From positions 1 to 63,916 of IMG/VR virus record IMGVR_UViG_3300044491_001200: a stretch of 63,916 nucleotides of DNA; one strand, 5' to 3'. Position 1 is the first letter of the stretch. Each line of letters starts with the position of its first letter. A program made the translations under genes and the position numbers. Shown here piece by piece: positions 38,743 through 60,720 of this stretch. This stretch comes from a virus. The notes under the pieces are model-generated. The model made no database searches and was not told where the DNA came from. It worked only from the letters and a program-made list of their open reading frames with translations.

Positions 38743-41430
38743 ATGAGTTACGTTGATGCGTTTCATGACACAGCAAAGGACAAGATCCTCGTATCTGAAA
38801 GAGTAGATGGTAAGAGACATATTGTTACTCTACAACCTGAATATAATTTTTATTATGCTGACCCACGTGGTAAAGCAAGAAGTGTCTATGGCGATCCTGT
38901 AACTGAAGTACGTTGCAAATCTCTAAAGGACTTTAGAAAGAACGTAGCAATCAATAAGAAAAGCGGAAAGATGTTTGAAACTGACGTCCGTCCTATCAAT
39001 AAAACACTAGAAAAGAATTATCTCAATGCAGAGATACCTAAACTACATACAGCATTCTTTGACATCGAGGTAGACTTTGATCCTGTAAAAGGATTTAGTT
39101 CACCTGAAGATGCCTTTATGCCTATTACTGCAATAGGTGTATACTTAGACTGGATGGATGCTATGGTATGTTTAGCAGTACCACCTAAAACATTAGACTG
39201 GCAACAAGCACAAAGCATTGCAAGTAAGATGCCAGAAGTAATGTTGTTCAAAGACGAAGCAGAAATGCTTAACACATTCCTCACACTAATAGATGATGCA
39301 GACATACTAAGTGGCTGGAACAGTGAAGGTTATGATATACCTTATACTACTAATAGAATTATCAAGATACTAGGTAAAAGCGAAACAAGACGTTTGTGTT
39401 TGTTTGGACAGTTTCCTAAAGAACGTAAGTTTGAAATGTTCGGTAGCGAAAGACAGAGCTATGACCTCATTGGTAGAGTTCACTTAGACTATTTGCAACT
39501 GTATAGAAAATACAACTATGAGGAACGACATAGTTACAGACTAGACTTTATTGGTGAGATGGAACTAGGTGAGAAGAAGGTTGTGTACGAAGGTAGTTTA
39601 GATAGACTATACAATCATGACTTTGAACGTTTCTTAGAATACAACATTCAAGACGTGTTGTTGATTGCTAAGATGGATAAAAAATTACAGTTCATTGACT
39701 TAGCGAATACTATTGCACATGACAATACTGTATTACTTCCAACCACAATGGGTGCTGTAGCAACTACAGAACAAGCAATTATAAACGAAGCACACTTACG
39801 TGGCTTCTGTGTTCCAGACAGAGATAGACGTGAGAAACATAATACACAGGCCGCTGGTGCTTATGTGGCTTTCCCTAAGAAAGGTAAGCATGAATGGATA
39901 GGCAGTATGGACATAAACAGTCTATATCCTAGTGTGTTTAGGGCATTGAATATGGCTCCTGAAACTATTGTTGGACAACTTAGACCAGAGTTCACAGACG
40001 AAGAAATAGAAAACAAACAGAAGTTAGATAAACTATCGTTTGCTGATTCATGGCTTGGTAAGTTTGGTAGCAATGAATATGAAATGGTAATGGCTAAAGA
40101 TGTTGATACCGTTATGAAACTAGATATGGAGGACGGTACTAGTGTAGATGTTACTGGTGCTGATGTATATAATTTAGTATTTCACAGTGGTCAACCTTGG
40201 AATATTAGTGCTAATGGTACTATCTTTAAAACAGACGTACAAGGTATTGTGCCAGGACTATTAGAGAGATGGTATGCAGAAAGACAAGAGTTACAGGCTA
40301 AAAAGAAAAAAGCAACCTCAGATGCTGAGAAGGCTTTCTATGATAAGCGACAGTTAGTTAAAAAGATCAACCTTAACAGTTTGTATGGTGCGATACTTAA
40401 TCCAGGCTGTAGGTTCTTTGACAAACGTATAGGACAGAGTACTACACTAACAGGTCGTGCTATTACAAAACACATGGGGGCAGAAACAAATAGAATGTTT
40501 ACAGGAGAATATGATCATACCGGAGACACTATTGTCTATGGAGATACAGACTCTGTTTACTTTTCCGCTGTTCCGTCATTGCCGAATGATGTTACCCTAG
40601 ATATGCAAAGTGCTATCACATTGTATGATCACATATCAGATACAGTTAGTGATACATTCCCACAGTTTATGAAAGATAGTTTTAATGTTCCACTTAAGAT
40701 TGGTGGTGTTATTAAAGCAGGTAGAGAAGTAGTTGGTAAGAGTGGACTGTTTATTACTAAGAAGAGATATGCTATCAAGTGTTTAGACATAGAAGGATAT
40801 CAACCTGAAGGTGGTAAACTAAAGATTATGGGTATGGACATCAAGCGAAGTGATACTCCTGAATTTGTACAGGACTTCCTTGAAGAGATACTAGACTCTG
40901 CACTAGAAGGCATGCCAGAGAAAGATGTTATACAAATGATAAAAGACTTCAAAGCAGGATTTAAAGAACTAGAACCATGGAAGAAAGGTATGCCTAAAAG
41001 GGTAAACAACTTAACCATGTACACCAAAAAGTATAGAAAGCAAACAAACATGCAGACTAATACAAACATATACAAATTGGAAAAACTAAAAAGCGAAAAA
41101 GAGAACAAAATGATTCCTGGGCATGTTAAGGCAAGTATAGTATGGAATGACCTTAAGTATGTAAACGGTGATCAATACAGTTTAAGCATTATGGATGGTG
41201 CAAAAGTTGTAGTATGCAGACTAAGAAATAATCCTATGGGTTATACAAGTGTTGCATATCCAACAGACGAACTAAAGATTCCACAATGGTTTAAAGAATT
41301 ACCTTTTGATGAAGAAGGTATGGAACAAGCAGTTCTAGATAAGAAGATACAAAACGTGTTAGGCGTACTTGGATGGGACTTGTCTAGAGCAAATGATAGT
41401 GAGGTTATGGATAATTTCTTTGAATTTTAA
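38743..41430 (+). CDS. 43: family B DNA polymerase (T4 gp43-like)
   Basis: 895 residues (T4 898). Exonuclease motif FFDIEVDF (about 100-107), polymerase motif A SMDINSLYPS (about 388-397), motif B KKINLNSLYGA (about 544-554) and motif C YGDTDSVYF (about 600-608). Ends in VMDNFFEF, the C-terminal clamp-binding tail; the DpdA-like protein at 42428 ends in the near-identical VMDTFFEF. Replicative polymerase with proofreading. A candidate translational operator lies before it and the clamp gene follows under its own promoter. Confidence 0.98.
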   Translation: MSYVDAFHDTAKDKILVSERVDGKRHIVTLQPEYNFYYADPRGKARSVYGDPVTEVRCKSLKDFRKNVAINKKSGKMFETDVRPINKTLEKNYLNAEIPKLHTAFFDIEVDFDPVKGFSSPEDAFMPITAIGVYLDWMDAMVCLAVPPKTLDWQQAQSIASKMPEVMLFKDEAEMLNTFLTLIDDADILSGWNSEGYDIPYTTNRIIKILGKSETRRLCLFGQFPKERKFEMFGSERQSYDLIGRVHLDYLQLYRKYNYEERHSYRLDFIGEMELGEKKVVYEGSLDRLYNHDFERFLEYNIQDVLLIAKMDKKLQFIDLANTIAHDNTVLLPTTMGAVATTEQAIINEAHLRGFCVPDRDRREKHNTQAAGAYVAFPKKGKHEWIGSMDINSLYPSVFRALNMAPETIVGQLRPEFTDEEIENKQKLDKLSFADSWLGKFGSNEYEMVMAKDVDTVMKLDMEDGTSVDVTGADVYNLVFHSGQPWNISANGTIFKTDVQGIVPGLLERWYAERQELQAKKKKATSDAEKAFYDKRQLVKKINLNSLYGAILNPGCRFFDKRIGQSTTLTGRAITKHMGAETNRMFTGEYDHTGDTIVYGDTDSVYFSAVPSLPNDVTLDMQSAITLYDHISDTVSDTFPQFMKDSFNVPLKIGGVIKAGREVVGKSGLFITKKRYAIKCLDIEGYQPEGGKLKIMGMDIKRSDTPEFVQDFLEEILDSALEGMPEKDVIQMIKDFKAGFKELEPWKKGMPKRVNNLTMYTKKYRKQTNMQTNTNIYKLEKLKSEKENKMIPGHVKASIVWNDLKYVNGDQYSLSIMDGAKVVVCRLRNNPMGYTSVAYPTDELKIPQWFKELPFDEEGMEQAVLDKKIQNVLGVLGWDLSRANDSEVMDNFFEF

Positions 41431-42269: not shown

Positions 42270-42428
42270 ATGAACGAATTAGCAGAAATTTTATGTAGAA
42301 TGTCGCAAGAGCAATTACACGAGTTCGCCAGAGCATGTATGGACAAAGGCATTGCTATACCATTAGAGTTTGCACTACACACAGAACAGTTAGATGCTGA
42401 CTTTGATTTTATTAAAGAGAGTGCATAA
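42270..42428 (+). CDS. 52-residue protein, unknown
   Basis: Begins 1 nt after gene 45, with AAGGAGATAGC upstream as ribosome binding site, and overlaps the dpdA start by 1 nt. Helical and acidic. No motif. Confidence 0.7.
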   Translation: MNELAEILCRMSQEQLHEFARACMDKGIAIPLEFALHTEQLDADFDFIKESA

Positions 42429-43990
42429 TGGATTTAGGTAAAAGACAGTTAGACTATGCTGTATATTTGCCAGCCATTAGTAGTTTCTATGTAAAGCAAT
42501 TAGATAAGATTCTAAACAAAGACCCTGCTAATAGTAGAACGCCTGCAGGATTTGAATATGGCAACGAAGGCTTAGACTTTTTAAAAGCAAAAGACACATA
42601 CTTCCATTATCCATATGGACTATACTCAGCCGGTCATGCTCACTTAGACATTGCTAAAAGTCACAAAGATGAGCCAATGATACAGGACAGAGATAGAAAC
42701 GAATGTAAAGTAATACTAGGAGACTCAGGTGGTTTCCAGATTGCTACAGGCGTAATGAAAATGGATTGGGACAACGCAAAAGATCCTAACGATCCTGCTC
42801 GTACAAAGATGTGTGAGAAAATATTACGTTGGTTAGAACACACAGCAGACTGGAGTATGACATTAGACATTCCGGCCTTTGCCGCAGTTGAGCCACTAAG
42901 CAGTAAAACAGGACTAACAGAATTTAAAGACACATTAGATATTAGTTTGCTTAACTTACATTACTTCACAAGCAATCGTGTACCTGGAGCAACTAAGTTC
43001 TTAAATGTATTAAGTGGTACTGACGAAGCAACAAGTAAAGAATGGTACGAAGCAGTTAAAAATTTTAGTGATAAAAACTTTGTTGCACAGGCTTATGGTG
43101 ATGAGAATAGAACACTAGAAGGATATGCATTCGCTGGTATCAACATGAAAGACATGAGTTGTGTACTAAACAGGATGCTAGACTTACGTGAAGATGGTTT
43201 ACTTGAAGGCAAGGATTGGATACACTTCCTTGGTACAGGTAAACTACAATGGGCATGTTTCTTAACAGCAATACAAAGACAGTTAAGAATACATGATAAC
43301 CCTAACATCACATTAAGTTTTGATGCCGCTAGTCCATTTGTGAATACAGCATACGGACAAACTTATGCACACAATTTCTTTGAGCCAGGCAAGTTTGGTT
43401 ACTTCATGGACAGAGCATTTGATCAACAAGAACTTGTTGGTAGTGATTTGCCTGCTCCGTTTGGACACAGTCCTGTAATGAGTAGACTTACAATGGGTGA
43501 CCTATGTACTATGGGTCCAGGTGCACAAGACAAGAATGGTAACTTCAAGTTTAGTGAAGGACAACCACTTACAGACAAGCATGGTGAGCCTAAACTAGAT
43601 GAACAAGGCAATCAACTATATGCAGAACGTGATAGCACTACATGGGACACACAAACATATCTTTACTATATGGGTCATAGTGTATTCAATCACATTGATG
43701 CAGTACAAGAAGCAAATAGACTTGCTGATGTAGAAGCATTTAGAGAAACATTAGATTATAAGAACTGGAGAAAGCCTACTAAGAAAAGCAGTAAGGCACA
43801 AGAAGTATCTCCATATGTTCCTGCTAATATTTTATACTTCCAAAAGTTTGCAGAGGATTTATTTGATCCTAGCAATCCAAATCCAAGAGGTATGATAGCA
43901 GACCATAGAGAGTTCTTAACACATATAGGTTTCGCTGGAGAAGATGATGGCGATAACGAAGAAGTAATGGATACATTTTTTGAGTTTTAA
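42428..43990 (+). CDS. dpdA: DpdA-like 7-deazaguanine DNA transglycosylase
   Basis: 520 residues. VILGDSGGFQIATG (about 96-109) is the tRNA-guanine-transglycosylase core signature with DSGGFQ; DWSMTLDIPAF (about 139-149) follows in the TIM barrel. Phage DpdA proteins replace guanine in DNA with a 7-deazaguanine base. FolE, QueE and a QueD-like protein in the same island support this over a tRNA-modifying TGT. The C-terminal VMDTFFEF closely matches the gp43 tail VMDNFFEF, so it may dock on the gp45 clamp. Confidence 0.88.
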   Translation: MDLGKRQLDYAVYLPAISSFYVKQLDKILNKDPANSRTPAGFEYGNEGLDFLKAKDTYFHYPYGLYSAGHAHLDIAKSHKDEPMIQDRDRNECKVILGDSGGFQIATGVMKMDWDNAKDPNDPARTKMCEKILRWLEHTADWSMTLDIPAFAAVEPLSSKTGLTEFKDTLDISLLNLHYFTSNRVPGATKFLNVLSGTDEATSKEWYEAVKNFSDKNFVAQAYGDENRTLEGYAFAGINMKDMSCVLNRMLDLREDGLLEGKDWIHFLGTGKLQWACFLTAIQRQLRIHDNPNITLSFDAASPFVNTAYGQTYAHNFFEPGKFGYFMDRAFDQQELVGSDLPAPFGHSPVMSRLTMGDLCTMGPGAQDKNGNFKFSEGQPLTDKHGEPKLDEQGNQLYAERDSTTWDTQTYLYYMGHSVFNHIDAVQEANRLADVEAFRETLDYKNWRKPTKKSSKAQEVSPYVPANILYFQKFAEDLFDPSNPNPRGMIADHREFLTHIGFAGEDDGDNEEVMDTFFEF

Positions 43991-43992
43991 TT

Positions 43993-44181
43993 ATGAGTAT
44001 ATTAGATAATATAAAATATTATGCAAACAAAAGTTGGTTGCTAACACTAGACTTTATAGATTGGCACAAAGACTTTACAAATGATATTGCACACAAATAC
44101 AATTTATGTCCTTGGGCAATAGGCCTTATAGGTTTTGCTAAAGGTGTGTTAGTAGTATTATTATTGCAGTGGTTATTTTAA
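43993..44181 (+). CDS. small membrane protein, unknown
   Basis: 62 residues, one C-terminal transmembrane helix (about 40-61). Starts 2 nt after dpdA. No motif. Confidence 0.65.
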   Translation: MSILDNIKYYANKSWLLTLDFIDWHKDFTNDIAHKYNLCPWAIGLIGFAKGVLVVLLLQWLF

Positions 44182-44182
44182 A

Positions 44183-44692
44183 ATGGAAAGAGAAGGTTAC
44201 ACAGACGACACTAAGTTCTTCATAGGCACAGAAGTAGAGCATACTCCTGCTTATGGACAACGCACATTGTTTGTTATTGGCTTACAGAATCCTAAAGAGA
44301 TATTAGCAAGGGCATTGAATAACAACTGTCCTCACATCTACTTAGGTGCTAACATGAGTTTTGCACCCGAGACTGCACAGGATTGGAAAGACTGGGAATA
44401 CTTAGCCACAACTCTACTAAAGGATGATATATGGGTAACATTAGATTATCCTGTAGAATTACATGCAGATGTGTTAGAGTGTGGTATGACAGAGTATAAC
44501 ACTTTTATTCCAATGATTAGTGTTAGATTGCCTTACATTGGTCAGTTAGGATACAACGCATGTATCAAGTTAGATGACAAAGACTTTAAGGCAACTAACC
44601 CAGGTGTGTGGACACACTCAGTACATGACTTAATGGATAGAAAAGTATTTACTGATTGGTCCAAGTACACCAAAGATGAGATCATAGATTGA
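44183..44692 (+). CDS. protein of the 7-deazaguanine island, unknown
   Basis: 169 residues, with alternating beta/alpha segments (TLFVIGLQNPKEILARAL, CPHIYLGANMSF, DIWVTLDYPVELHADVL) that suggest a TIM-barrel or Rossmann-like fragment. No cysteine cluster or P-loop. Its place between dpdA and the membrane gene at 44689 suggests a link to the modification pathway, not established. Confidence 0.65.
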   Translation: MEREGYTDDTKFFIGTEVEHTPAYGQRTLFVIGLQNPKEILARALNNNCPHIYLGANMSFAPETAQDWKDWEYLATTLLKDDIWVTLDYPVELHADVLECGMTEYNTFIPMISVRLPYIGQLGYNACIKLDDKDFKATNPGVWTHSVHDLMDRKVFTDWSKYTKDEIID

Positions 44693-44943
44693 ACGAAGTA
44701 GGCATATCCGATGTAATAGGACTTATAGGTGTAGCATTATTGATTACTACCTATGCATTATTACAGTTTGATAGGATAGATCCTAAAGGTTTTTGGTATA
44801 GTTTTAACAATATGATTGTTGCTATACTGGTTACTGTAAGTTTAGTTTATAGTTTTAATTTAGCAAGTATGGTAATAGAAATATTTTGGTTCAGTTTAAG
44901 TTTATATGGGGTATGGAAATACTATACCAGAAAAAAAGGTTGA
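44689..44943 (+). CDS. CBU_0592-like small membrane protein
   Basis: 84 residues from a TTG start that overlaps the previous stop (TTGA). Three hydrophobic segments with VIGLIGVALLITTYALLQ and IEIFWFSLSLYGVWKYY, matching the CBU_0592-like domain of bacterial small membrane proteins. Function unknown. The TTG start is the only candidate and is moderately certain. Confidence 0.62.
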   Translation: MNEVGISDVIGLIGVALLITTYALLQFDRIDPKGFWYSFNNMIVAILVTVSLVYSFNLASMVIEIFWFSLSLYGVWKYYTRKKG

Positions 44944-44968
44944 CAAATGGTGCTATTTTATATAAAAT
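44940..44968 (+). promoter_or_regulatory. sigma-70 promoter of the 44982 operon
   Basis: TTGACA (44940-44945), 17-nt spacer, TAAAAT (44963-44968); an alternative -10 TATAAA lies 2 nt upstream. Confidence 0.7.
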
Positions 44969-44981
44969 AGTATATTAGATT

Positions 44982-45113
44982 ATGAAAATTAAATTAGAAA
45001 TAGATATCGATACAAAAGAAGATATGGACGAGATCAACTCTTTAGTAGAGCTCGTAACCGAATTTAGAGACAGATTGATTGCTCTACAAGACGGAGATTG
45101 GGATGATGATTGA
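44982..45113 (+). CDS. 43-residue acidic peptide
   Basis: Short acidic frame directly after a promoter, ending DGDWDDD. No ribosome binding site is evident in the short leader. Overlaps the next gene by 11 nt. Confidence 0.5.
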   Translation: MKIKLEIDIDTKEDMDEINSLVELVTEFRDRLIALQDGDWDDD

Positions 45114-45267
45114 GGACATACTTAATTTTATTGTAGGTATTGTTTTTCTTATTGGTGCAGGCTATTTTGCTTACATGAGTAACGTGTTAGTTAGCGAAAA
45201 GAAAGCAAGATACAAAGCAGGAACACATGACTATTATGATAATCCTATTGAGAAGGACCATGAATGA
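45103..45267 (+). CDS. 54-residue single-pass membrane protein
   Basis: ATG 45103 is chosen since GGAG lies 6 nt upstream; a second ATG follows at once. One hydrophobic helix (about 6-25) and a charged C-terminal tail. Confidence 0.62.
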   Translation: MMIEDILNFIVGIVFLIGAGYFAYMSNVLVSEKKARYKAGTHDYYDNPIEKDHE

Positions 45268-45334
45268 TAAACTTGTAGTCAATAGACTTAAAACAAAAAA
45301 TTTAACGTTATGGGATCCGAGCAAGGAAGCATAA
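45260..45334 (+). CDS. 24-residue possible leader peptide
   Basis: Very short frame bridging two genes, with AAGGA 4 nt before the ATG and 1- and 8-nt overlaps with the neighbouring frames. It may only serve translational coupling. Confidence 0.3.
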   Translation: MNDKLVVNRLKTKNLTLWDPSKEA

Positions 45335-45435
45335 TGAAAGAACATAGTCCAAATGGACATGTAGTTTTGAAGGAAGTACCTTTAGAATTTAACAAAGAAG
45401 GTAAGACTTCAAAAAAAGGAAAGAAAGAATGGTAA
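45334..45435 (+). CDS. 33-residue basic peptide
   Basis: AAGGAAGC upstream; overlaps the cold-shock gene start by 7 nt. Lys-rich C-terminus. May be real or a coupling frame. Confidence 0.4.
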
Positions 45436-45626
45436 CAGGAAAAGTAAAATGGTTTAATGCAGAAAAAGGATTTGGATTTATTACCCCAGATGACGGTAGT
45501 AAAGACGTATTTGCACATCATACAGCAATAGTAGGTGATGGGTATAAAACTTTAAATGAAAACCAAGAAGTGACATTTGATGTCACCGAAGGTGCAAAAG
45601 GACCACAAGCAAGTAATATTGTTTAA
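45429..45626 (+). CDS. cold-shock domain protein (CspA-like)
   Basis: 65 residues. [12 protein letters not shown] holds RNP-1 (KGFGFI, 14-19) and VFAHHTAI holds RNP-2 (27-31). The five-strand OB-fold binds single-stranded RNA/DNA and melts RNA structure. Shorter surface loops than E. coli CspA but all core residues are there. In an operon ahead of the QueD-like gene. Confidence 0.95.
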
Positions 45627-45635
45627 GGAGATTGT

Positions 45636-46070
45636 ATGAGAAGTATTTGGGTAACATTTAGTAAAGAAGGTATACATAAGTATCCTGCGGCATTAGAAGA
45701 TCCTAATCTAGCAACTGGCGACGAGTATGACGTTAGTTTCCTAGGTTATCCTCATAGACACACATTCCACTTTAAAGTGTGGATTGAAGTGTTCCATGAT
45801 GACCGAGACATCGAATTCATACAGTTTAAAAGATGGTTGGAGAATCAGTATCGAGATGCTATTCTTCAACTTGATTTTAAGTCATGCGAAATGATAGCAG
45901 ATGACTTATACGAAGCGATCAACGATGAATATCCTGGTCGTTACATAAAGATTTCAGTAGCCGAAGATAATGAAAACGGTTGCGAAATGGAGTATCCAGT
46001 AGAAGACTTGGATGGTCCTGATTTTTCGGACACAGATGCAATAGCAGATGTATTCGACAGTTTAAAATAG
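45636..46070 (+). CDS. queD: QueD/6-pyruvoyl-tetrahydropterin-synthase-like T-fold protein
   Basis: 144 residues. YPHRHTFHFKVWIEV (about 34-48) matches the QueD zinc motif HGHSF-type strand, and CEMIADDLYEAI followed by IKISVAEDNENGCEMEY (about 88-117) matches the family's C-terminal helix, strand and catalytic Glu. The catalytic Cys that normally precedes the HxH by four residues is Leu here. In the queuosine pathway QueD turns dihydroneopterin triphosphate (FolE product) into the QueE substrate. Pathway neighbours are present; activity is uncertain. Confidence 0.75.
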   Translation: MRSIWVTFSKEGIHKYPAALEDPNLATGDEYDVSFLGYPHRHTFHFKVWIEVFHDDRDIEFIQFKRWLENQYRDAILQLDFKSCEMIADDLYEAINDEYPGRYIKISVAEDNENGCEMEYPVEDLDGPDFSDTDAIADVFDSLK

Positions 46071-46079
46071 GAGAATATT

Positions 46080-46259
46080 ATGACTGAGACACATTTAAAA
46101 ATGAAAGCACTCTTCGAAGAGTATCAAGCAGAACAAGATAAGTTTGAAAACGGTGGTGTTAAAGCCGCGGCAACTAGAGCAAGAAAGGCTCTAATGGAAA
46201 TCTCTAAACTTTGCAAAACAAGAAGAAATGAGATTCAAGAAACTAAAAACGGAATGTAA
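46080..46259 (+). CDS. histone H1-like (Hc1-type) DNA-binding protein
   Basis: 59 residues. The pattern EADKFxxGGxKAAATRARKxLxEIxKLCKxxRxEIQ closely follows Hc1-like small proteins. Basic, helical, GGAG ribosome binding site 6 nt upstream. Would bind and compact DNA, or target modified phage DNA in this island; the latter is speculation. Confidence 0.75.
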   Translation: MTETHLKMKALFEEYQAEQDKFENGGVKAAATRARKALMEISKLCKTRRNEIQETKNGM

Positions 46260-46270
46260 GGAATATTAGC

Positions 46271-47485
46271 ATGAGAAAACTATTTTATATGGGTCTAGAA
46301 AGTTACGAAGCACGTTATACGTTGCAACTGCAAGACTGGAATGAACGAGTATTCAACTTCAGAGGAGTTGACTATGAGGTTATTACTGGTGATGAGTTAG
46401 ACAATAGCAAGGCTATTGTAACTGGTAGTGTGTTAGATGCACACGGTAGAACATATTATAGTTTATCTCAGACTATGTCCCTTATCCAAATGATGAAGAA
46501 CGGTGAACTAACAAGTGATGACGTTATCTTTTATGAAGATATGTTTACGCCAGGACTTGAATGTTTGCCTTACATCATGGACCAAAGTCCACCAGAGTTT
46601 AGACCTAAAGTTTATCTACGTTTCTTAGCACAAACAACTGACCCAGATGACTTCTTGATTAGAGAAGGTATGTTTGGTTGGATGCGTAAGTATGAGGAAA
46701 TGGTAGATGAATTTGTGGATGGTATCTGCGTGGCAAGTGAAGAGTTTGTAGCACATCTGCGTATTGCAGGACTTAAAGCACCTATCTATGTAACAGGTTT
46801 ACCATATGGTAAAGAAGAAGTTAGAGGTAGGATTGATACAAACATTCCACTAGACGAAAGGACTAAACGTGTAGGCTTTGCGGCACGTTGGGACGATGAG
46901 AAGCAACCACATTTTTATATGGACTTAGCAGAAGCCTACTACAAAATAGATCCTGAAGTCGAGTTTGCAATCTTTTGTGGACATCCAGAACTTAAAAGTT
47001 CAGATCCAGAATATGTAAAACGTGCAATTGATTTGCAAGAAGCATATGAATTAGGCAAAGTAAGAACTGCAAACTTTAAAATCTACACAGGCTTAAAGAA
47101 AAACGATTACTATAATTTGTTAGCAGACAGTAGAGTATTATTCAATTGTGCATTACAAGATTGGGTAAGCAATACTGTCAGCGAAGCCGATACATTTGGT
47201 ACACTCACACTATATCCAGCATATAGAAGTTTTCCAGAAGTATTTGCTAACAATGGTAATCACATGTATGTTCCATGGAGCATGGACGACGCAGTAGAAA
47301 AACTGTCCAGGATGTTTACTGATATCGAAAACAAAGATCTAAATAGATACAACATTGGAAAGATCAGTGACTACCAAGATGGAACCATAAACAGAACCCT
47401 CGATGTATTAGAGGGCAACGGAGAACAATATGCAAGGAATGGTTGGGATTTCCGTAAGCATGTTGCACAAAAGAAATATGAATGA
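46271..47485 (+). CDS. GT-B-type glycosyltransferase (GT4-like)
   Basis: 404 residues. C-terminal nucleotide-sugar-binding half: VGFAARWDDEKQPHFYMDLA (key residues about 197-216), FAIFCGHPEL (about 236-245) and SNTVSEADTFGTLTLYPAY (catalytic-type Glu, about 300-318). The N-terminal half has the acceptor domain. Overlaps the GalE-like gene by 8 nt, which would supply UDP-sugar. It could glycosylate phage DNA, virion proteins or host glycans; no evidence separates these. Confidence 0.82.
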   Translation: MRKLFYMGLESYEARYTLQLQDWNERVFNFRGVDYEVITGDELDNSKAIVTGSVLDAHGRTYYSLSQTMSLIQMMKNGELTSDDVIFYEDMFTPGLECLPYIMDQSPPEFRPKVYLRFLAQTTDPDDFLIREGMFGWMRKYEEMVDEFVDGICVASEEFVAHLRIAGLKAPIYVTGLPYGKEEVRGRIDTNIPLDERTKRVGFAARWDDEKQPHFYMDLAEAYYKIDPEVEFAIFCGHPELKSSDPEYVKRAIDLQEAYELGKVRTANFKIYTGLKKNDYYNLLADSRVLFNCALQDWVSNTVSEADTFGTLTLYPAYRSFPEVFANNGNHMYVPWSMDDAVEKLSRMFTDIENKDLNRYNIGKISDYQDGTINRTLDVLEGNGEQYARNGWDFRKHVAQKKYE

Positions 47486-48455
47486 AGAAGCAAAAACAGT
47501 CTTAGTTACAGGCGGTAGTGGATACATTGGCGGAGTAGTTTGCAGACTACTTGTTGATGCAGGACACAATGTTGTAAACTTAGACAGAGCAAAGAAACAA
47601 ATACCAGGTGTAAATCAGTATCCTTTTGATATTGACAACCACCAAGTAAAAGGTATTATCAAATTGATCAAGCCAGATACTATTATACATTTAGCGGCTG
47701 ACCATGAAGTAGGTAGAAGTGTAACAGAGCCTAACGTGTTTTATAAAAACAATGTTGCTAACACAATTGACTTACTAGATCATGCTGTAGAAAGTGGAGT
47801 TAAGAACTTTATATTCAGCAGTTCAAGTTCAGTATATGGTGATATCAATACATTCCCAACAACAGAAGACACACCAAAAGCACCAGTAAGCCCATATGGT
47901 TTAAGTAAAAGTATTATAGAAGATATACTTCCTGACTATGAAAAGGCTTACGGACTTAAATTTATAGCATTAAGATATTTCAATGCCGCAGGTGCAATGC
48001 CTGATTTAAGTCATGGTTACACACAAGACCCAGCAAGTCACATTGTTCCTATTATTGCTAGAAAAGTAATAGCAGGAGAAGATGTTGAAGTGTTTGGCAC
48101 AGACTACAATACCACAGACGGTACATGTGAAAGAGATTATACACATGTATTTGATATTGGTACAGCACATTTATCAAGTATGAACTATCTAAACGATGGT
48201 GGAGACAGTGGCATATTTAATATTGGTGCAGGTAATAGTCAAAGTGTTAAGCAAGTGATTGCAGAGTTTGAAACAGTTACAGGTGAAACTATAAACACTA
48301 TTGAAACAGATAGAAGAGCAGGAGATCCGCCTAAGACATTTGCTGATAACACATTAGCAAAAGAAACGTTTGGTTGGACTCCTCTATATGGTTTAAATGA
48401 AATAGTTGACCATTCTTACCAATGGGAACTAAAGAAAAATAAAAGCAGAAAATAG
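47478..48455 (+). CDS. galE: UDP-glucose 4-epimerase-like extended SDR
   Basis: 325 residues from ATG 47478, overlapping the glycosyltransferase stop; an upstream start at 47430 would add unrelated residues. Motifs: TGGSGYIG (10-17), HLAADHEVGRS (about 70-80), SSSSVYG (about 115-121), YGLSK as YxxxK (about 140-144) and RYFNAAGA (about 166-173). Typical length is 330-340. Converts UDP-glucose and UDP-galactose or relatives. Co-translated with the glycosyltransferase. Confidence 0.9.
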   Translation: MNEEAKTVLVTGGSGYIGGVVCRLLVDAGHNVVNLDRAKKQIPGVNQYPFDIDNHQVKGIIKLIKPDTIIHLAADHEVGRSVTEPNVFYKNNVANTIDLLDHAVESGVKNFIFSSSSSVYGDINTFPTTEDTPKAPVSPYGLSKSIIEDILPDYEKAYGLKFIALRYFNAAGAMPDLSHGYTQDPASHIVPIIARKVIAGEDVEVFGTDYNTTDGTCERDYTHVFDIGTAHLSSMNYLNDGGDSGIFNIGAGNSQSVKQVIAEFETVTGETINTIETDRRAGDPPKTFADNTLAKETFGWTPLYGLNEIVDHSYQWELKKNKSRK

Positions 48456-48484
48456 TTGACTTTTGCCAATAAAAATGGTATAAT
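48456..48484 (+). promoter_or_regulatory. sigma-70 promoter, leaderless
   Basis: TTGACT (48456-48461) begins right after the galE stop, 17-nt spacer, TATAAT (48479-48484), 6 nt to the ATG at 48491. Confidence 0.85.
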
Positions 48485-48490
48485 AGTATT

Positions 48491-48955
48491 ATGAGTATAG
48501 AACGATTGGTAGTAACAGAAGCAGATCTTAAGAACATGCTACATAGCATTGTTAGAGATATGCACACAGAAAACTACAAACCAGAAATAATAATAGGTCC
48601 TAACAGAGGCGGATTACAAATAGGTGTAATGTTAAGTCATTATTTTGATGTACCATTTGTACCATTACAGTGGCAAACACGTGATGGTGACAAAACAGAT
48701 CATGCAAATCTTATTGCATTTGTAAACGATTACAGAGAGAAGAACATATTGCTCATCGATGATATCAATGACACTGGTAAAACATTAAACAGCATAACTG
48801 AAACTATATATCAAGACTTTGTTTTTGATCTTAAGGTTGCTGTATTGTTTAATAAAACTACATCAACATTTGAGACTGTTGACTATTCAGCAGAAGAACT
48901 AACTCCGGACTACAATCCTTGGATAGTATTCCCTTACGAGGAGTGGTGGAAATGA
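48491..48955 (+). CDS. purine phosphoribosyltransferase-like protein
   Basis: 154 residues. PRPP-binding motif NILLIDDINDTGKT (about 82-95), and IIGPNRGGLQIGVML (about 35-49) as the PPi loop. Resembles xanthine-guanine/hypoxanthine phosphoribosyltransferases. It leads the folE-queE operon, so it may raise the GMP/GTP supply used by FolE; that link is inference. Leaderless early promoter. Confidence 0.85.
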   Translation: MSIERLVVTEADLKNMLHSIVRDMHTENYKPEIIIGPNRGGLQIGVMLSHYFDVPFVPLQWQTRDGDKTDHANLIAFVNDYREKNILLIDDINDTGKTLNSITETIYQDFVFDLKVAVLFNKTTSTFETVDYSAEELTPDYNPWIVFPYEEWWK

Positions 48956-49182
48956 AAGAAGCACATATTAGATCAGTAAGTAGAAGTAACCCTTCTAAAG
49001 GACAGTTTACATCAATGTTTGTTGTTGACTTGTTTAAGAATAAAGATAAGATAGGTGTTATTGAACTTCCTGGCAAGAGTAAATACTATGCTGAAGACGT
49101 TGTTGAGAATTGGCAGACCGGAATATTAGGAGAAGACAATGAGCACATCAAAAAGTTTGAGGAATCACCTCAAGGTTCTTGA
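48952..49182 (+). CDS. small protein, unknown
   Basis: 76 residues from ATG 48952 (GAGGAG 7-12 nt upstream), overlapping the previous stop by 4 nt. An earlier TTG frame start is unlikely. Beta-rich; SRSNPSKGQFTSMFVVDLFK (key residues about 10-29). Overlaps the next gene by 44 nt. Confidence 0.68.
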   Translation: MKEAHIRSVSRSNPSKGQFTSMFVVDLFKNKDKIGVIELPGKSKYYAEDVVENWQTGILGEDNEHIKKFEESPQGS

Positions 49183-49342
49183 GGAAAGACATAGAGAACT
49201 CGACAAGAAAGTTGCCGAGGACTACGAGCATTATCTAAATGATGATCAGTTAAATGCTGAAAAGTTAGAAAAACTCAAATTAAAGCATGAGATAGCAGAT
49301 TTAATAGAACAAATAAAAGATAAGGAACAAGACGAGAAATGA
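49139..49342 (+). CDS. DUF465/YdcH-like coiled-coil protein
   Basis: 67 residues: LKVLEERHRELDKKV, then a short gap and KLEKLKLKHEIADLIEQI, the two-helix hairpin typical of DUF465. Overlaps both neighbours, 4 nt with folE. Function of the family is unknown. Confidence 0.78.
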   Translation: MSTSKSLRNHLKVLEERHRELDKKVAEDYEHYLNDDQLNAEKLEKLKLKHEIADLIEQIKDKEQDEK

Positions 49343-50028
49343 GTACAAGTAATAAGATCAAGGATAGATTAGTTGCCGCTGGTAAAAGATTTTGGGCAGG
49401 AGATAATATCTCTGACTACATAGAAGAAGGTGAGAAGCAACAACTAATAGACGAACTTTCAATTAAGTTTGAAGATGTCTTGCAAGGTCTTGTTATTGAT
49501 ACTGAGAACGATCCTAACAGTAACGGCACAGGCAAACGTCTTGCTAAGATGTATATCAATGAACTAATGGCAGGTAGGTATGAATCTATACCAGTTGCAA
49601 CTGCTTTCCCTAATGACAGTGAAGATAGATATGAAGGCATGTTGGTTGTGCGTAGCGAACTAACAAGTATGTGTTCACACCATCATCAGATAGTTAGAGG
49701 TGTAGCATACATTGGTATTATTGCTAGTGACAAACTAATTGGCCTAAGCAAGTACACAAGGATTGCACAATGGTGTGCAATGAGAGGTACACTACAAGAA
49801 GAACTTGCTAACGATATAGTTAGAGAAATACAGAAAGCCACAGGTGCAGAGCATTTGGGTGTGTATGTACAAGCAACACACGGTTGCGTAGAGAATAGAG
49901 GTGTTAAGGCACATAGTAGTCTTACACAAACAACTGTATTAAAGGGTGCATTTAAAGATGACCCAGGTACAAAGAAAGAGTTTATGGATAACATAAAGTT
50001 ACAACAATCATATGCGGGTGACAAGTAA
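49339..50028 (+). CDS. folE: GTP cyclohydrolase I
   Basis: 229 residues. SELTSMCSHHHQIVRGVAYIG (zinc Cys/His at about 114-117), IGLSKYTRIAQWCAMR (about 136-151) and a third zinc Cys in ATHGCVENRGVKA (about 180-192). This is complete FolE architecture. It converts GTP to dihydroneopterin triphosphate, the first step to 7-deazaguanine. In an operon with queE two genes downstream. Confidence 0.96.
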   Translation: MSTSNKIKDRLVAAGKRFWAGDNISDYIEEGEKQQLIDELSIKFEDVLQGLVIDTENDPNSNGTGKRLAKMYINELMAGRYESIPVATAFPNDSEDRYEGMLVVRSELTSMCSHHHQIVRGVAYIGIIASDKLIGLSKYTRIAQWCAMRGTLQEELANDIVREIQKATGAEHLGVYVQATHGCVENRGVKAHSSLTQTTVLKGAFKDDPGTKKEFMDNIKLQQSYAGDK

Positions 50029-50556
50029 GTGATATTAAAAAGAAACAAAGCATGGGTATTACAAAAAGGATTAGTTCCTATTGATGCTGTATGCGATATG
50101 GTTGCAATGGGTAAGGATCTGCAAGATATCTTGCGTAGATTTTCTGTACTTAACAACAACGATATATTCGAATGTATAGAATTTTATGCACAAAATACTA
50201 TCGTTCCTGACCATGATCCAGAGTCTTTAATATCATTGGTAAATACTGATCCAGAAGAAATTATTATTGAGGTAACAAATATAAATCAAACTGTATACTT
50301 GAAGTTAGTTGAACTGGGTAAAAGATATCACCCTGAGCAACAAGACTTCCATGTGTGTATGAATTTAGGTTTAAAGGTTGTATGTTTACATAACGTACAA
50401 AAGATTGAAAGTAACGCAAGTGAAATGCAAGATAGGCTACATAAAGCAGTACATCAAGCAATTCATAGATCAGTCCCAGAAGTATATGAGGACTTAGATA
50501 GAACAAAAGAAGATCTCGATTACGACGACTTCATTAAAAGAGAAAAGAATATATGA
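50029..50556 (+). CDS. protein between folE and queE, unknown
   Basis: 175 residues from a GTG start exactly after the folE stop. Helical N-terminal part (1-60), mixed middle and a helical, acidic C-terminus. No motif. The tight placement within the pathway operon (4-nt overlap with queE) suggests a pathway or DNA-modification role. Confidence 0.68.
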   Translation: MILKRNKAWVLQKGLVPIDAVCDMVAMGKDLQDILRRFSVLNNNDIFECIEFYAQNTIVPDHDPESLISLVNTDPEEIIIEVTNINQTVYLKLVELGKRYHPEQQDFHVCMNLGLKVVCLHNVQKIESNASEMQDRLHKAVHQAIHRSVPEVYEDLDRTKEDLDYDDFIKREKNI

Positions 50557-51437
50557 AACTAAGGTATAGTGAAGCATTTTATTCAGTGCAAGGAGAAGGT
50601 AGGTTTGTTGGCGTACCAAGTATTTTCCTTAGAACTTTCGGATGTAATTTCGAATGTGCAGGTTTTGGTCAGCCCAAAGGCAACTTGATTCCTGTAACTG
50701 AAATGCCATATAATACCGATCCTTTAGCGGATAAAGAACATCCTAATGCTTATAAGAGAATTGAAGAACTTCCAGTCACTCCAGTAGGATGTGATTCTAG
50801 TGCTAGTTGGAGCAAGAAGTATAAACACTTACAGATGACTAAATCTGTTGATGAGGTGATTGATCACATCACTAGTTTACTTCCCAACAGCACATTCACC
50901 GGCCAACACGGTGAAGACATACACCTGGTGATCACAGGTGGTGAACCGCTACTAGGGTGGCAACGTGTTTGGCCGACTCTTTTAGACGAGTGTGTGAAAC
51001 GTGGGTTAAAGAATGTAACATTCGAAACTAACGGAACACAACTTGTTAAGAGCGATCTTATATCGTACTTTAACCTAACACAACCTAATCTACATGTAAC
51101 TTGGAGTACAAGTCCTAAGTTATCTATCAGTGGTGAGACTACTGAAGATGCATGTAAGCCAGACGCATTGGCTACTATGAACCATGTAGATAATAGTTTC
51201 TTATACACAAAGTTTGTTGTACGTGATGCAGAAGACTTTAATGAAGTTGATATGTTTGTACAAAATTATAAAGATAACGACATAGAACTTGACAGCATAT
51301 TCTGTATGCCCGAAGGTGCTACATTAGAACAACAATCACTAACAGAAAAAGAAGTTGCAGAAACTTGTTTGCAAACAGGATATAAGTTTAGTCCTAGATT
51401 GCATATTAGTTTGTTTGGTAACGCATGGGGTACATAA
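50553..51437 (+). CDS. queE: 7-carboxy-7-deazaguanine synthase, radical SAM
   Basis: 294 residues. N-terminal YSVQGEGRFVGVPSIFLRTFGCNFEC (substrate-binding GEG and Cys at about 30 and 34), then a long insertion before VGCDSSASW, which holds the third cluster Cys (about 78). VITGGEPLLGW (about 129-139) is the radical SAM GGE motif. The split cysteine cluster differs from the CX3CX2C of most QueE proteins but resembles other insertion-type QueE. It makes 7-carboxy-7-deazaguanine. Confidence 0.88.
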   Translation: MKLRYSEAFYSVQGEGRFVGVPSIFLRTFGCNFECAGFGQPKGNLIPVTEMPYNTDPLADKEHPNAYKRIEELPVTPVGCDSSASWSKKYKHLQMTKSVDEVIDHITSLLPNSTFTGQHGEDIHLVITGGEPLLGWQRVWPTLLDECVKRGLKNVTFETNGTQLVKSDLISYFNLTQPNLHVTWSTSPKLSISGETTEDACKPDALATMNHVDNSFLYTKFVVRDAEDFNEVDMFVQNYKDNDIELDSIFCMPEGATLEQQSLTEKEVAETCLQTGYKFSPRLHISLFGNAWGT

Positions 51438-55869: not shown

Positions 55870-56487
55870 ATGCCTAGACTAGAATTTGATTTCGATCAAA
55901 GATTTATACAAGAATACTTTGCAGATTTACCTATAGGCAGAGCACTCATAATTGGTGCTAACGAAGGATTCAATAATCCATCTTACAGTTTAATAGAAAA
56001 GGGTTGGAGAGCAGTATGTTGTGAGCCTAACCCTTTTGCCCTAAGCAGATTCTTAACTAATCAAAACAAATATCTAGAGCAAATTACATTTGTAAATTGT
56101 GCAATCACACCTACACCAGGTAAACTAACACCTTTTTATCTAGCAGAAAGACATGCAATGTCAAGCCTACATAATAATTGGTTGGACTTACAAGTAGAAA
56201 GAGGTGTATGTCCAGAAGATCAAGCAATTCAACAAGAGATACTGACACACACGTTAAGTTTCCAAGAACTACTTGATAAGGTAGGTGTTGACTTTGATTT
56301 AGTAGTAATTGATGCAGAGGGTGTTGATCCTGAGTTATTAGGTGCTATAGATTGGAGTCAATTATCTAAATGCAGTATGATATGTGTAGAAGATATTGGG
56401 TCAGGTGCTAAGTGGATAGAAGATGTAGGGTTTAAACTCTACCATAAATCACCAAGTAATTACTTCTACAACAGAGTTTTAGACTAA
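55870..56487 (+). CDS. FkbM-family methyltransferase
   Basis: 205 residues. ALIIGANEGFNNPSY (about 25-39) is the SAM loop, VCCEPNPFALSRF (about 48-60) the acidic strand 2, and FDLVVIDAEGVDPELLGAIDW (about 139-159) the FkbM signature. Members O-methylate sugars or small molecules. It fits with the glycan-active genes nearby (SGNH 57798, glycosyltransferase 46271). Confidence 0.9.
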   Translation: MPRLEFDFDQRFIQEYFADLPIGRALIIGANEGFNNPSYSLIEKGWRAVCCEPNPFALSRFLTNQNKYLEQITFVNCAITPTPGKLTPFYLAERHAMSSLHNNWLDLQVERGVCPEDQAIQQEILTHTLSFQELLDKVGVDFDLVVIDAEGVDPELLGAIDWSQLSKCSMICVEDIGSGAKWIEDVGFKLYHKSPSNYFYNRVLD

Positions 56488-57797: not shown

Positions 57798-58853
57798 ATG
57801 GCGTCAAGTATAAATCTCAATAGATTATTTCCTTTAACAAACAAACTGACTTTACCTGAAGTCTGTCATCCTAAATGGGTAAACTTAGGTGAGAATGGCA
57901 AGGTAGAAAGAACAGCGGACGGTTTTGTTGTTCAATGGATACCAACTGACAGTTACGAAAGATATCAAACACATGGCAACAAAGACTACGACGAAAGGTC
58001 TATGTACAAATTAAACAAACATTGTTTTAGAGCAGACAACTTTAAGTCAACAAGACATAGTAAGAAAAAGAAAATAATGTTTGCTGGTTGCAGTCATACA
58101 TTTGGTATTGGTGTAGATCAACACGAAACTTATGCTGATATTATATGCAAAGAATATGATGCTGTCAACTGGAATATAGGTGCAGGTGGTATTGGTAATG
58201 AAACAATAGTACTAAACATTACACAAATGATTGATAACGGTTACATACCAGATATATTATATGTGCAATGGAGTTACCTACACAGACAATTGATGCTAAC
58301 GGATAACGATATACATAGCACACTATCAACAAAAGCATTTGCTGGTAAGCCTGACGGTAGATATCATAGTCCGTATTTTGATTCTTATTGTGACTACATG
58401 AAAAACAAGATAAATAATGCAACATGGGATGACTCTGTAACATCTTTGAACAATCAACTTGACGAACTAGAAGATTATAGATTAGAGGATGATTTAAAAG
58501 AGTTATACCATTGGCATGGTAAAGATGATAGTAAAAGCGAATCTCTTAAAGCAGGAGAATACTTTGCAACATTTGGTTCTAAAGCATTACTAAATCAATA
58601 CTATCTATTAAGAGAGAACGTTATAAACTTATGTAAATTGCATAACATAGTTCTTAAAGAGATACATGCAGATATGCAGATAGTAGAGTTTTTAGCAGAA
58701 ACTGTTATACCTAACAAAGGTTATACAACTGGTGATGTGCCGGTAACATTAGACAGTTTAAGCACAGACTTTGGCAGAGATAATCTACACTATGGTAAAG
58801 AATCTAATAAAGCATGGGCAAAATATTTAATGGATTATACAAATGAAAAATAA
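57798..58853 (+). CDS. SGNH hydrolase-like protein
   Basis: 351 residues. Block I-like MFAGCSHTFGIGVD (about 94-107), block II-like NIGAGGIGNETIV (about 124-136) and VQWSYLHRQ (about 155-163); a C-terminal DNLHYGKESNKAWAKYL (about 328-344) supplies the DxxH-like site. Serine is preceded by Cys (GCSH instead of GDSH), as in some sugar O-acyl hydrolases. The gene after it is a radical SAM enzyme overlapping by 11 nt. Confidence 0.78.
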   Translation: MASSINLNRLFPLTNKLTLPEVCHPKWVNLGENGKVERTADGFVVQWIPTDSYERYQTHGNKDYDERSMYKLNKHCFRADNFKSTRHSKKKKIMFAGCSHTFGIGVDQHETYADIICKEYDAVNWNIGAGGIGNETIVLNITQMIDNGYIPDILYVQWSYLHRQLMLTDNDIHSTLSTKAFAGKPDGRYHSPYFDSYCDYMKNKINNATWDDSVTSLNNQLDELEDYRLEDDLKELYHWHGKDDSKSESLKAGEYFATFGSKALLNQYYLLRENVINLCKLHNIVLKEIHADMQIVEFLAETVIPNKGYTTGDVPVTLDSLSTDFGRDNLHYGKESNKAWAKYLMDYTNEK

Positions 58854-60720
58854 TGTATACCTATTTCAAGTACAATATGCTATTGAAATAAGCGATAAGA
58901 CAAACTATTATTTGCCTTATTCTATTGGGTGTATTGTTGCCTACGCAAAACAGTTTGAAGACATCAGAGATAATTGGGATTTTGGTGAACTATTTTTTAA
59001 ACGTGAAGATCCTATAGAGGTTGTTAAACGATTAGACAATCCTAAAGTATGTGCATTCAGTAGTTATGTGTGGAATGAAGTAATAAGCCAAGAGATTGCA
59101 AAAGAAGTTAGAAAACAATACCCAGACTGTATTATTGTTTGGGGTGGTCCGCAAGTAGGACCTGAGGATTATGATCTAGACTGGTGCGATATTGTTATCA
59201 AAGCAGAAGGTGAACGCAACTTTGTAAACATTCTCAGAGATATAGATGCTGGCAAAGAGTTGCCACAAACATATACCAGTGATAGAATAGATAAACTAGA
59301 CGAGTGTCCTAGTCCTTATTTGGAAGGTGTGTTTGATGATATCATTGCTTCACACCCAGAAGCCGTATTTGCAATGACCTTAGAAACAAACAGAGGATGT
59401 CCATTCCAATGTACATTTTGTGATTGGGGTAGTTTAACCTATGCTAAAATTAAAAAGTTTGATCTAGATAAAGTTGTAGGTGAATTAGACTGGGCAACAC
59501 AAAATCCAATTGGTTACCTTTGGGTAGCAGATGCTAACTTTGGTGTGTTTAAAGCCAGAGATATTGCTATTGCTAACTTAATAAAGTATGCATGTGATCA
59601 TCCTGACAGTGGCATAGATGCTGTAAACATTCAATACTATAAGAACAGCACAGAAATATCATTTGAAATAGCAAGGATACTAGGCAAATATAACAGAGGT
59701 ATGACGTTAAGTGTGCAAAGTATGACAGAAGAAGTATTAGTTGCTATTAAACGTGACAACTTAGAAATAAACGACTTAACAAAACTACTTAAACAGGCTA
59801 GAGAATATAATGTGTTAGCATACAGTGAAGTTATATTACCTTTACCAGAAGAATCATTAGACAGTTTTAAAACAAGCATAACACAATTATTAGAGTGTGG
59901 TCAACATAATGCTATTGAAATGTGGATGGGACAACTACTTAAGAACAGTGAACTAGGTTCCAAAGAGCATATAGAAAAATATGGCATAGGTTGGGTAGAA
60001 GCATACGATTATAATTATTATCATAACCCATTAGATTGGAATGAAAAACGTGAGAAAATAAACCTCATAAACAAAACAAACACCATGTCTACACCTGAAG
60101 TAACAAAAGCATACATGTATGGCTGGATGATATTACAGTTGCACACACAGGGTTATACGCAACTTGTAAGCAGGTATTTAAGAGGTGTACACAATATACC
60201 ATATAGACAATTCTACGATAGACTGTATGAACTATTACAAATAGATGATAAATTAAAAGTTATATTTAACTTTGTTGAACAGTTTGAAAAAGCATACATC
60301 ACTACAGGTGAGTTACCAGATCCAAAAGATATAGATCCAACTATCGAAGTGCCTAAACTAGGCGGACATTTTACAGCACAAATGAGTATGGACATGATAT
60401 ACAAAAATAGACAAAGTATATATGCTCTAGCAGAACAAATTGTAAACGAATTAGGTTTTACTAACGAGAGCATAATCAAAATGAATAGAGACCATTTGTA
60501 TGAAGATAACAAAGAGTATCAATCAACTTATCATAGTGATTACGATATAGAAGAATGGACTCCCGGACAATTTGAGTATGAATTAGAGCCATGTATTTCT
60601 AAAAAATGGGTTACACAATCTATTGTGTCTGCTAAAGTCAACTCTGCAAATAAACAGATCGAAGCAATACAACAAAGACGCAGAGGTCTAAAAAATTACT
60701 ATAAAAAACTTGACAACTGA
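58843..60720 (+). CDS. B12-binding-domain radical SAM protein
   Basis: 625 residues. N-terminal Rossmann-like cobalamin-binding region: VCAFSSYVWNE, CIIVWGGPQVGPEDY (about 95-109) and DIVIKAEGERNF, lacking the DxHxxG histidine as in many class B enzymes. Radical SAM core with CPFQCTFCDWG (CX3CX2C, about 185-195). C-terminal helical domain (about 400-625). Typical of methylases or cyclases that use cobalamin and SAM. Overlaps the SGNH gene, so they may act together on a glycan or fibre component. Confidence 0.9.
   Translation: MKNNVYLFQVQYAIEISDKTNYYLPYSIGCIVAYAKQFEDIRDNWDFGELFFKREDPIEVVKRLDNPKVCAFSSYVWNEVISQEIAKEVRKQYPDCIIVWGGPQVGPEDYDLDWCDIVIKAEGERNFVNILRDIDAGKELPQTYTSDRIDKLDECPSPYLEGVFDDIIASHPEAVFAMTLETNRGCPFQCTFCDWGSLTYAKIKKFDLDKVVGELDWATQNPIGYLWVADANFGVFKARDIAIANLIKYACDHPDSGIDAVNIQYYKNSTEISFEIARILGKYNRGMTLSVQSMTEEVLVAIKRDNLEINDLTKLLKQAREYNVLAYSEVILPLPEESLDSFKTSITQLLECGQHNAIEMWMGQLLKNSELGSKEHIEKYGIGWVEAYDYNYYHNPLDWNEKREKINLINKTNTMSTPEVTKAYMYGWMILQLHTQGYTQLVSRYLRGVHNIPYRQFYDRLYELLQIDDKLKVIFNFVEQFEKAYITTGELPDPKDIDPTIEVPKLGGHFTAQMSMDMIYKNRQSIYALAEQIVNELGFTNESIIKMNRDHLYEDNKEYQSTYHSDYDIEEWTPGQFEYELEPCISKKWVTQSIVSAKVNSANKQIEAIQQRRRGLKNYYKKLDN

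Follow-up and report, generated by a model that had tools for sequence, protein, structure and literature searches.

The window analysed here is the sole contig of its IMG/VR virus record (IMGVR_UViG_3300044491_001200), linear and 63,916 bases long. At 42428-51437 it carries an island of 7-deazaguanine genes in which DpdA, FolE and QueE stand together with a paralog of QueD and in which no QueC was found. Considered as a whole, the island is probably best explained as a branch of phage 7-deazaguanine DNA modification that does without QueC. In the loci that we examined, the phage pathway has two mutually exclusive finishes, one with QueC and the other with the QueD-fold paralog. The proposed QueC-less branch is marked by this paralog and, in a large subset of carriers, also by a dedicated glycosyltransferase and by the open reading frame (ORF) at 44183. 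The gene pattern is strong, and the chemistry is a proposal that we derive from sequence.

All genes of the island lie on the + strand, with small ORFs interspersed. The principal ones are:

42428..43990, + strand: DpdA, predicted DNA guanine transglycosylase of the tRNA-guanine transglycosylase (TGT) superfamily; 520 aa, DSGGFQ core
44183..44692, + strand: ORF 44183, constantly associated with DpdA and with the QueD paralog; 169 aa
45636..46070, + strand: QueD-fold paralog without the QueD catalytic triad, proposed to process 7-carboxy-7-deazaguanine (CDG); 144 aa, phrog_17812
46271..47485, + strand: glycosyltransferase-like protein, GT-B, PF00534 type (E 2.6e-4, below cut-off), probable decorating enzyme
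47430..48455, + strand: nucleotide-sugar epimerase, possible maker of a sugar donor; PF01370 E 2.6e-53, phrog_540 E 2.1e-71
48491..48955, + strand: purine phosphoribosyltransferase-like protein (PRT), possibly for guanine salvage; PF00156 E 5.7e-14
49339..50028, + strand: FolE, GTP cyclohydrolase I; PF01227 E 4.1e-37, phrog_2197 E 1e-43
50029..50556, + strand: ORF 50029, a local gene probably outside the pathway; DUF433 just below cut-off
50553..51437, + strand: QueE, 7-carboxy-7-deazaguanine synthase, radical S-adenosylmethionine (SAM) enzyme; phrog_2076 E 7.6e-54

Distribution of the paralog and of QueC

Two sets of viral loci were compared, one seeded with the paralog (the best 80 of at least 596 viral relatives) and the other with QueC (the best 80 of 199), both searched with in-house hidden Markov models (HMMs) at E < 1e-5, so that each seed is present in 80/80 of its own loci by construction. 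The 80 paralog loci held the glycosyltransferase in 77, window-type DpdA in 73, ORF 44183 in 68, FolE in 60, a PRT-type protein in 42, QueE in 36, QueD in 8 and QueC in none. The 80 QueC loci held FolE (47), QueD (45), QueE (43), a TGT-like protein (13), a PRT-type protein (11) and window-type DpdA (1), and neither the paralog, the glycosyltransferase nor ORF 44183 in any. Because the paralog occurs in 0/80 QueC loci and QueC in 0/80 paralog loci, the paralog seems to replace QueC, not QueD. The QueD proteins of the QueC set point the same way: 43 of 45 matches are of the HGY type, which is also the type in most paralog carriers, and since the QueC phages have this QueD without the paralog, the paralog appears dispensable for the QueD step and would act at a different one.

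The seven paralog loci without DpdA have less than 1 kb of sequence upstream, and the three without the glycosyltransferase less than 0.9 kb downstream; with flanks this short, truncation can explain every one of these misses. Reverse searches, seeded with ORF 44183, the PA5oct-type glycosyltransferase and the window-type glycosyltransferase (best 80 loci each), recovered 75, 73 and 77 loci with the paralog and 77, 63 and 70 with DpdA or TGT, respectively, and none with QueC in any of the three sets. The misses in these sets mostly had little flank on the relevant side. One locus (L464) has the paralog with 8 kb of flank on either side, yet no recognised DpdA. Merging near-identical contigs reduced the 318 cassette loci to 252 groups, in which we found the paralog (242), the glycosyltransferase (240), window-type DpdA (220), ORF 44183 (217) and a TGT-like protein (4); paralog, glycosyltransferase and DpdA or TGT occurred together in 212 groups, and QueC in 0.

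Absence of QueC

PF06508, which as a positive control matched in 12/14 control bacterial genomes, gave 0 matches in the window, and SGGxDS is absent from all six of its frames, bearing out an earlier sequence-only reading of this DNA that had noticed the missing queC. The window is a fragment, so this absence alone proves little, and the argument rests on its relatives. PF06508 was searched in 17 related records, 3 phage records, a set of 12 phage records (PA5oct, Phosso and 2.275.O being repeated) and 15 further contigs. It found no match in PA5oct, Paride, Phosso, ACP17, phiST, RHph_I1_18, Bakedbeans, Ahp1_CNU-2021, BUCT-ZZ01 or MA9V-3, and the genomes of PA5oct (286,783 bp), Paride (287,267 bp) and Phosso (469,473 bp) are described as complete. 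Our in-house QueC HMM is narrow, as 6 of the 7 sequences behind it belong to the QueC set, and it is weak on the QueC-like protein P0001 (just 1.4e-9); we therefore added a test independent of HMMs, in which a single frame had to hold both SGGxDS and the Cys cluster. Both motifs occurred in one frame in 79/80 QueC-seeded loci, in 0/64 DpdA loci and in 0/318 cassette loci. Because the complete relatives have no PF06508 match and the 318 cassette loci no frame with both motifs, the suggestion that queC lies beyond the window, elsewhere in the genome of this phage, is disfavoured.

Vibrio phage 2.275.O does have a canonical QueC; its DpdA, a distant relative, adjoins QueF and QueC genes, and the paralog had no match in this phage. 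Several other PF06508 matches were set aside. The match in L071 is an NAD synthetase by Pfam, those in L068-L070 look alike by eye only, and that in X1 is NAD-synthetase-like by eye; the match in L067 (23.7 bits, above the QueC cut-off, over the N-terminal part only) is another PP-loop protein, and three matches among the 15 further contigs are missing CxxCxxC. The NAD-synthetase gene of some relatives (L071:1321-2265, PF02540 E 2.2e-45; L068:1279-2277, by eye) perhaps has a role in NAD-related counter-defence.

The QueD-fold paralog

The paralog matches phrog_17812 (E 1.7e-29) and is similar to the 6-pyruvoyl-tetrahydropterin synthase (PTPS) family PF01242 only weakly, at E 0.073, below cut-off; its profile gave chance matches only against PDB sequences. 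Its AlphaFold model has a mean confidence (pLDDT) of 88, and the best Foldseek match of the model is E. coli QueD (4ntk, E 5.2e-5), while the best VIA-align match is the archaeal PTPS 2dtt (Z 12.2, root-mean-square deviation (rmsd) 2.2, 92 residues aligned). His14, His40, His42 and Glu110 are kept in 21/21 sequences, and the three histidines are, from their pattern, candidates for the three zinc ligands. The residues that we take to be catalytic in QueD are Cys27, Asp70 and His71 (E. coli numbering). At the position of the cysteine the paralog has Leu36 in 21/21 sequences, and in an alignment with E. coli QueD the segment Asp70-His71 is absent; R57, E60, C84, E85 and R102 are invariant in 21/21. 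The protein is thus a member of a distinct family rather than an ordinary QueD; its model keeps the QueD fold, and the catalytic triad is gone. The sequence-only reading had called it a QueD-like T-fold protein, a description that survives for the predicted fold and fails for the catalytic residues and family.

More ordinary QueD genes lie apart from the cassette in some relatives. In PA5oct, FolE (168449), QueD (169206) and another PTPS (171501) are far from dpdA (222985), and in four related records (G007, G008, G013 and G014) the distance between a PTPS match and dpdA exceeds 30 kb. In Bakedbeans (L107:9215-10366, 383 aa) and MA9V-3 (L111:7395-8276, 293 aa) the paralog makes up the C-terminus of a larger ORF whose N-terminal part has no convincing Pfam match; this may be a fusion, which could offer a clue to function. 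Scanning 84,980 prokaryote species, a search that finds near relatives, returned 15 loci, 14 titled as metagenome-assembled genomes and 1 as uncultured; 7/15 have paralog, DpdA and glycosyltransferase. On this evidence the family looks viral.

DpdA, FolE and QueE

The window DpdA had no match in Pfam, NCBIfam or PDB sequences. In hhalign, its profile (A3, 23 sequences) matched TGT-like proteins from two phages, ACP17 and X1 (E 1.3e-5), in an alignment that begins at DSGGFQ and runs as far as the SFDAA/SYDST motif. The ACP17 protein itself matches TIGR00449, though with 4.6e-7 it does not reach the cut-off of that model. D99 and D299, in DSGGFQ and in a later FD motif, are invariant in 23/23 sequences and are presumably the two catalytic aspartates. 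From these sequence comparisons the protein is a member of the TGT superfamily, predicted to insert a deazaguanine into DNA, in agreement with the earlier identification of DpdA by its DSGGFQ core. FolE (127.8 bits against a PF01227 cut-off of 27) and QueE had likewise been correctly recognised; in QueE, C31, C35 and C80 are invariant in 15/15 sequences, with a long insert ahead of the third Cys in most, and the NCBIfam QueE models match with scores below their cut-offs.

Searching with DpdA yielded 64 viral loci and 13 phage records, 11 of the latter being Pseudomonas phages of the PA5oct group, whose DpdA is 49% identical to that of the window over 99% of the query. The gene lies downstream of DNA polymerase in all 61 fetched stretches that reach that far (PA5oct and 60/64 viral loci). 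In the window, the DNA polymerase (38743-41430) and DpdA share a near-identical C-terminal peptide, MDNFFEF versus MDTFFEF, and no other window ORF of at least 60 aa ends in this way. An FFEF/FFDF end is found on DpdA in 18/64 viral loci, which are the window's close relatives, and in more distant DpdA loci a similar tail (SLFDF-type) is found on the polymerase only. We take the tail to resemble the clamp-binding tail of T4-type polymerases, and by this analogy DpdA may ride on the replication clamp.

Glycosyltransferase, ORF 44183 and ORF 50029

The glycosyltransferase, the closest partner of the paralog, had been overlooked by the sequence-only reading, as had the epimerase and the PRT. It is too tightly linked to the cassette to be a passenger. 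Its homologs in X1 (45.5 bits) and BUCT-ZZ01 (26.5 bits) score over the PF00534 cut-off, and R206, E210, K211 and E305 are invariant in 15/15 sequences; its profile gave one uninformative match against PDB sequences. The PRT has the purine phosphoribosyltransferase 1vdm as its best PDB match (E 6.3e-14).

ORF 44183 was found in 59/64 of the DpdA-related viral loci and ORF 50029 in just 18/64. The former thus belongs to the cassette and the latter probably does not, so that an earlier suggestion that both might be part of the pathway holds up for one of them. In ACP17 the homolog of ORF 44183 lies directly upstream of dpdA (HMM E 6.2e-28), and the top viral structure match of the model is a 132-aa ACP17 protein (E 3.7e-7) of the same length as this homolog. 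Foldseek against the PDB gave no match at E 0.001, and a comparison with DpdA found nothing. We considered ORF 44183 as a relative of QueE, B. subtilis QueE (5th5) being the second-ranked PDB alignment (Z 6.3, rmsd 3.7, 129 aligned, 18% identity), and set the link aside as weak: by the guidance of the alignment tool a Z below 8 can arise by chance, and comparing the profiles gave E 0.067 across 16 columns.

Carriers among named phages

A tblastn search with the paralog found 26 phage records, which we treated as 11 lineages and of which one or two records per lineage were examined. FolE is present in 11/11 lineages and QueE in the fetched stretches of 9. The glycosyltransferase and a recognised DpdA occur in the same 5/11: the PA5oct group, Phosso (in which dpdA lies elsewhere in the genome), ACP17, X1 and BUCT-ZZ01. 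The clearest case is the Acidovorax phage ACP17, in which the genes form the row QueD-FolE-44183-DpdA-glycosyltransferase-paralog-QueE.

Proposed pathway

The observations from which we argue are the gene content, the predicted fold of the paralog and its loss of catalytic residues, its mutual exclusion with QueC in the loci examined, and the constant linkage of glycosyltransferase and ORF 44183. According to passages of PMC13329287, FolE, QueD and QueE lead to CDG, which QueC turns into 7-cyano-7-deazaguanine (preQ0). In the phage of the window, FolE, a canonical QueD (phage-encoded elsewhere, or from the host) and QueE would make CDG. There being no QueC, we infer a CDG-derived product, and with it which base enters the DNA and all the chemistry beyond CDG. 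The paralog, which some carriers have together with the glycosyltransferase and others on its own, is the strongest candidate for an enzyme acting on CDG, and might handle it in place of QueC, decarboxylation to 7-deazaguanine being our leading guess. DpdA would then exchange guanine in DNA for the resulting base, and the glycosyltransferase-like protein would probably decorate the base or the modified DNA, with the epimerase possibly making the sugar donor and the PRT possibly recycling the guanine that DpdA sets free. In its fullest form, which we put forward tentatively and hold to be somewhat less than an even chance, the proposal is that the cassette, found in five unrelated named lineages and many environmental ones, starts from CDG and, bypassing preQ0, leaves phage DNA with a glycosylated 7-deazaguanine: the paralog prepares CDG or its product, DpdA inserts the base, and the glycosyltransferase adds a sugar. 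Boldest of all is the idea that the sugar might be attached to the base itself or to the 7-carboxylate.

A number of observations weigh against this proposal. The glycosyltransferase of the window scores 21 bits against PF00534, below the cut-off of 26.4, and on the paralog model dihydroneopterin aldolases and other T-fold enzymes score nearly as high as QueD. A decarboxylated base has no 7-substituent to hold a sugar, so that decarboxylation and glycosylation at position 7 fit poorly together. In 6/11 named lineages (phiST, RHph_I1_18, Bakedbeans, Ahp1, D479 and MA9V-3) the stretches fetched hold neither the glycosyltransferase nor a recognised DpdA. The locus sets consist of the nearest relatives of each seed, related to one another and with limited flanks. 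The exclusion of QueC has its own exceptions: phage D479, which has the paralog, also encodes a diverged PF06508 protein without SGGxDS, and 2/33 related records hold a short QueC-like PP-loop protein (L066:1477-2145 in G003 and L072:1474-2148 in G008) with SGGxDS and C(x)7CxxCxxC and without VPxRN and YPDC, motifs containing residues that passages of PMC13329287 describe as essential for QueC. With a DpdA at 82%, G003 is a near relative of the window, and its QueC-like protein therefore counts against a strict no-QueC rule. The short protein of G003 and G008 is possibly another CDG-activating enzyme.

Other explanations can be offered for the same genes. It is conceivable, though we think it unlikely, that the host completes an ordinary preQ0 pathway, the phage FolE and QueE boosting flux, host QueC performing the last step and DpdA inserting preQ0. 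QueC was found in 12/14 control bacterial genomes, and host participation and phages with partial pathways are discussed in sections of Hutinet et al. 2019 (PMC6884629). However, the QueC phages carry their own QueC alongside FolE and QueE, and this account, which the sequence-only reading also offered, explains neither the paralog nor why loci with the paralog and glycosyltransferase and loci with QueC exclude each other. Of similarly low probability is that DpdA inserts CDG unchanged, giving its deoxynucleoside dCDG in DNA, while the paralog and the glycosyltransferase serve other ends such as pathway regulation or virion or host glycosylation. CDG is the last base that the encoded enzymes are known to make, and its insertion was already raised for the QueC-less phage Bipper in passages of Hutinet et al. 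(PMC6884629). In the loci examined, however, both glycosyltransferase subfamilies are nearly confined to the cassette, with the paralog in 73/80 and 77/80 of the loci seeded with them. The earlier suggestion of a CDG-type base thus had the right direction, with plain dCDG as only one outcome, since the paralog and the glycosyltransferase suggest further processing of CDG.

We consider two further accounts very improbable. The genes might raise the precursors of queuosine in tRNA, with the DpdA-like protein acting on tRNA rather than DNA: DpdA is, after all, a TGT-superfamily member, and passages of Hutinet et al. (PMC6884629) propose a tRNA role for phages that have pathway genes without DpdA. 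Against this, phage genes without QueC stop short of preQ0, dpdA lies downstream of DNA polymerase in the 61 stretches, and the DpdA of the window's clade ends in the C-terminal peptide of the polymerase. Just as remote is a split QueD, in which the paralog and the HGY-type QueD together form one 6-carboxy-5,6,7,8-tetrahydropterin (CPH4) synthase and the missing QueC is a separate matter. The residues are complementary in part, the paralog keeping the three putative zinc histidines without the triad and the HGY-type QueDs keeping Cys, Asp and His and having lost at least the third zinc histidine, but QueC phages have the same HGY-type QueD (43/45) with the paralog in 0/80. We set this account aside as a main explanation, as the HGY type appears to work alone in QueC phages.

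With the QueC-independent branch as the preferred explanation, a queC unseen in one fragment becomes a pattern across loci. If it is true, many uncultured phages, together with Paride/PA5oct and ACP17, carry a guanine modification outside the usual preQ0 picture. Three candidate proteins for assay emerge, and cultured carriers exist.

Neighbouring genes

A cold-shock-type protein is encoded within the island (45429-45626, PF00313 E 1e-29) and recurs ahead of the paralog in several relatives. A short way downstream of the island is an FkbM-type methyltransferase (55870-56487, PF05050 E 1.8e-7), and at 58843-60720 there is a B12-binding radical SAM protein, with PF04055 above cut-off and PF02310 below it.

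Comparison with known systems

ACP17 resembles the window in a cluster with ORF 44183, the glycosyltransferase and the paralog and in having no PF06508 match, but its DpdA is of a different TGT subfamily: it matches the window-type HMM at E 9.6e-6 and the TGT-like HMM at E 4.4e-247, the latter having been built partly from the ACP17 protein. The Pseudomonas jumbo phages PA5oct and Paride (Wroclawvirus), also without a PF06508 match, have the run DpdA-glycosyltransferase-paralog-epimerase fragment-PRT-QueE in common with the window; they differ from it in that a separate region holds FolE along with two more PTPS proteins, and ORF 44183 was not found in the two stretches examined. Canonical QueD, the 6-carboxy-5,6,7,8-tetrahydropterin synthase, and the paralog have the predicted fold and the His/Glu positions in common, whereas the paralog is without the catalytic Cys, Asp and His. 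Cui et al., in 2023, are said to have found phage DNA with dCDG and with the deoxynucleoside of 7-deazaguanine (dDG), and to have predicted a CDG decarboxylase, DpdL. In that scheme, too, CDG rather than preQ0 would be the branch point, and the reaction that we favour for the paralog is the one ascribed to DpdL; the scheme reportedly contains no glycosyltransferase.

Among the papers listed in literature searches, none by its title or abstract connects DpdA islands to a glycosyltransferase that acts in the modification, and in passages of PMC12028318 the glycosyltransferase lies in a separate island. The preQ0/dG+ islands of CAjan, 9g and nt-1, as described in parts of PMC6884629, resemble the window in combining DpdA with FolE and QueE and in the transglycosylation into DNA that is expected as the last step. 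Relative to that description, the window is without QueC and has in addition the QueD-fold paralog, a dedicated glycosyltransferase and ORF 44183.

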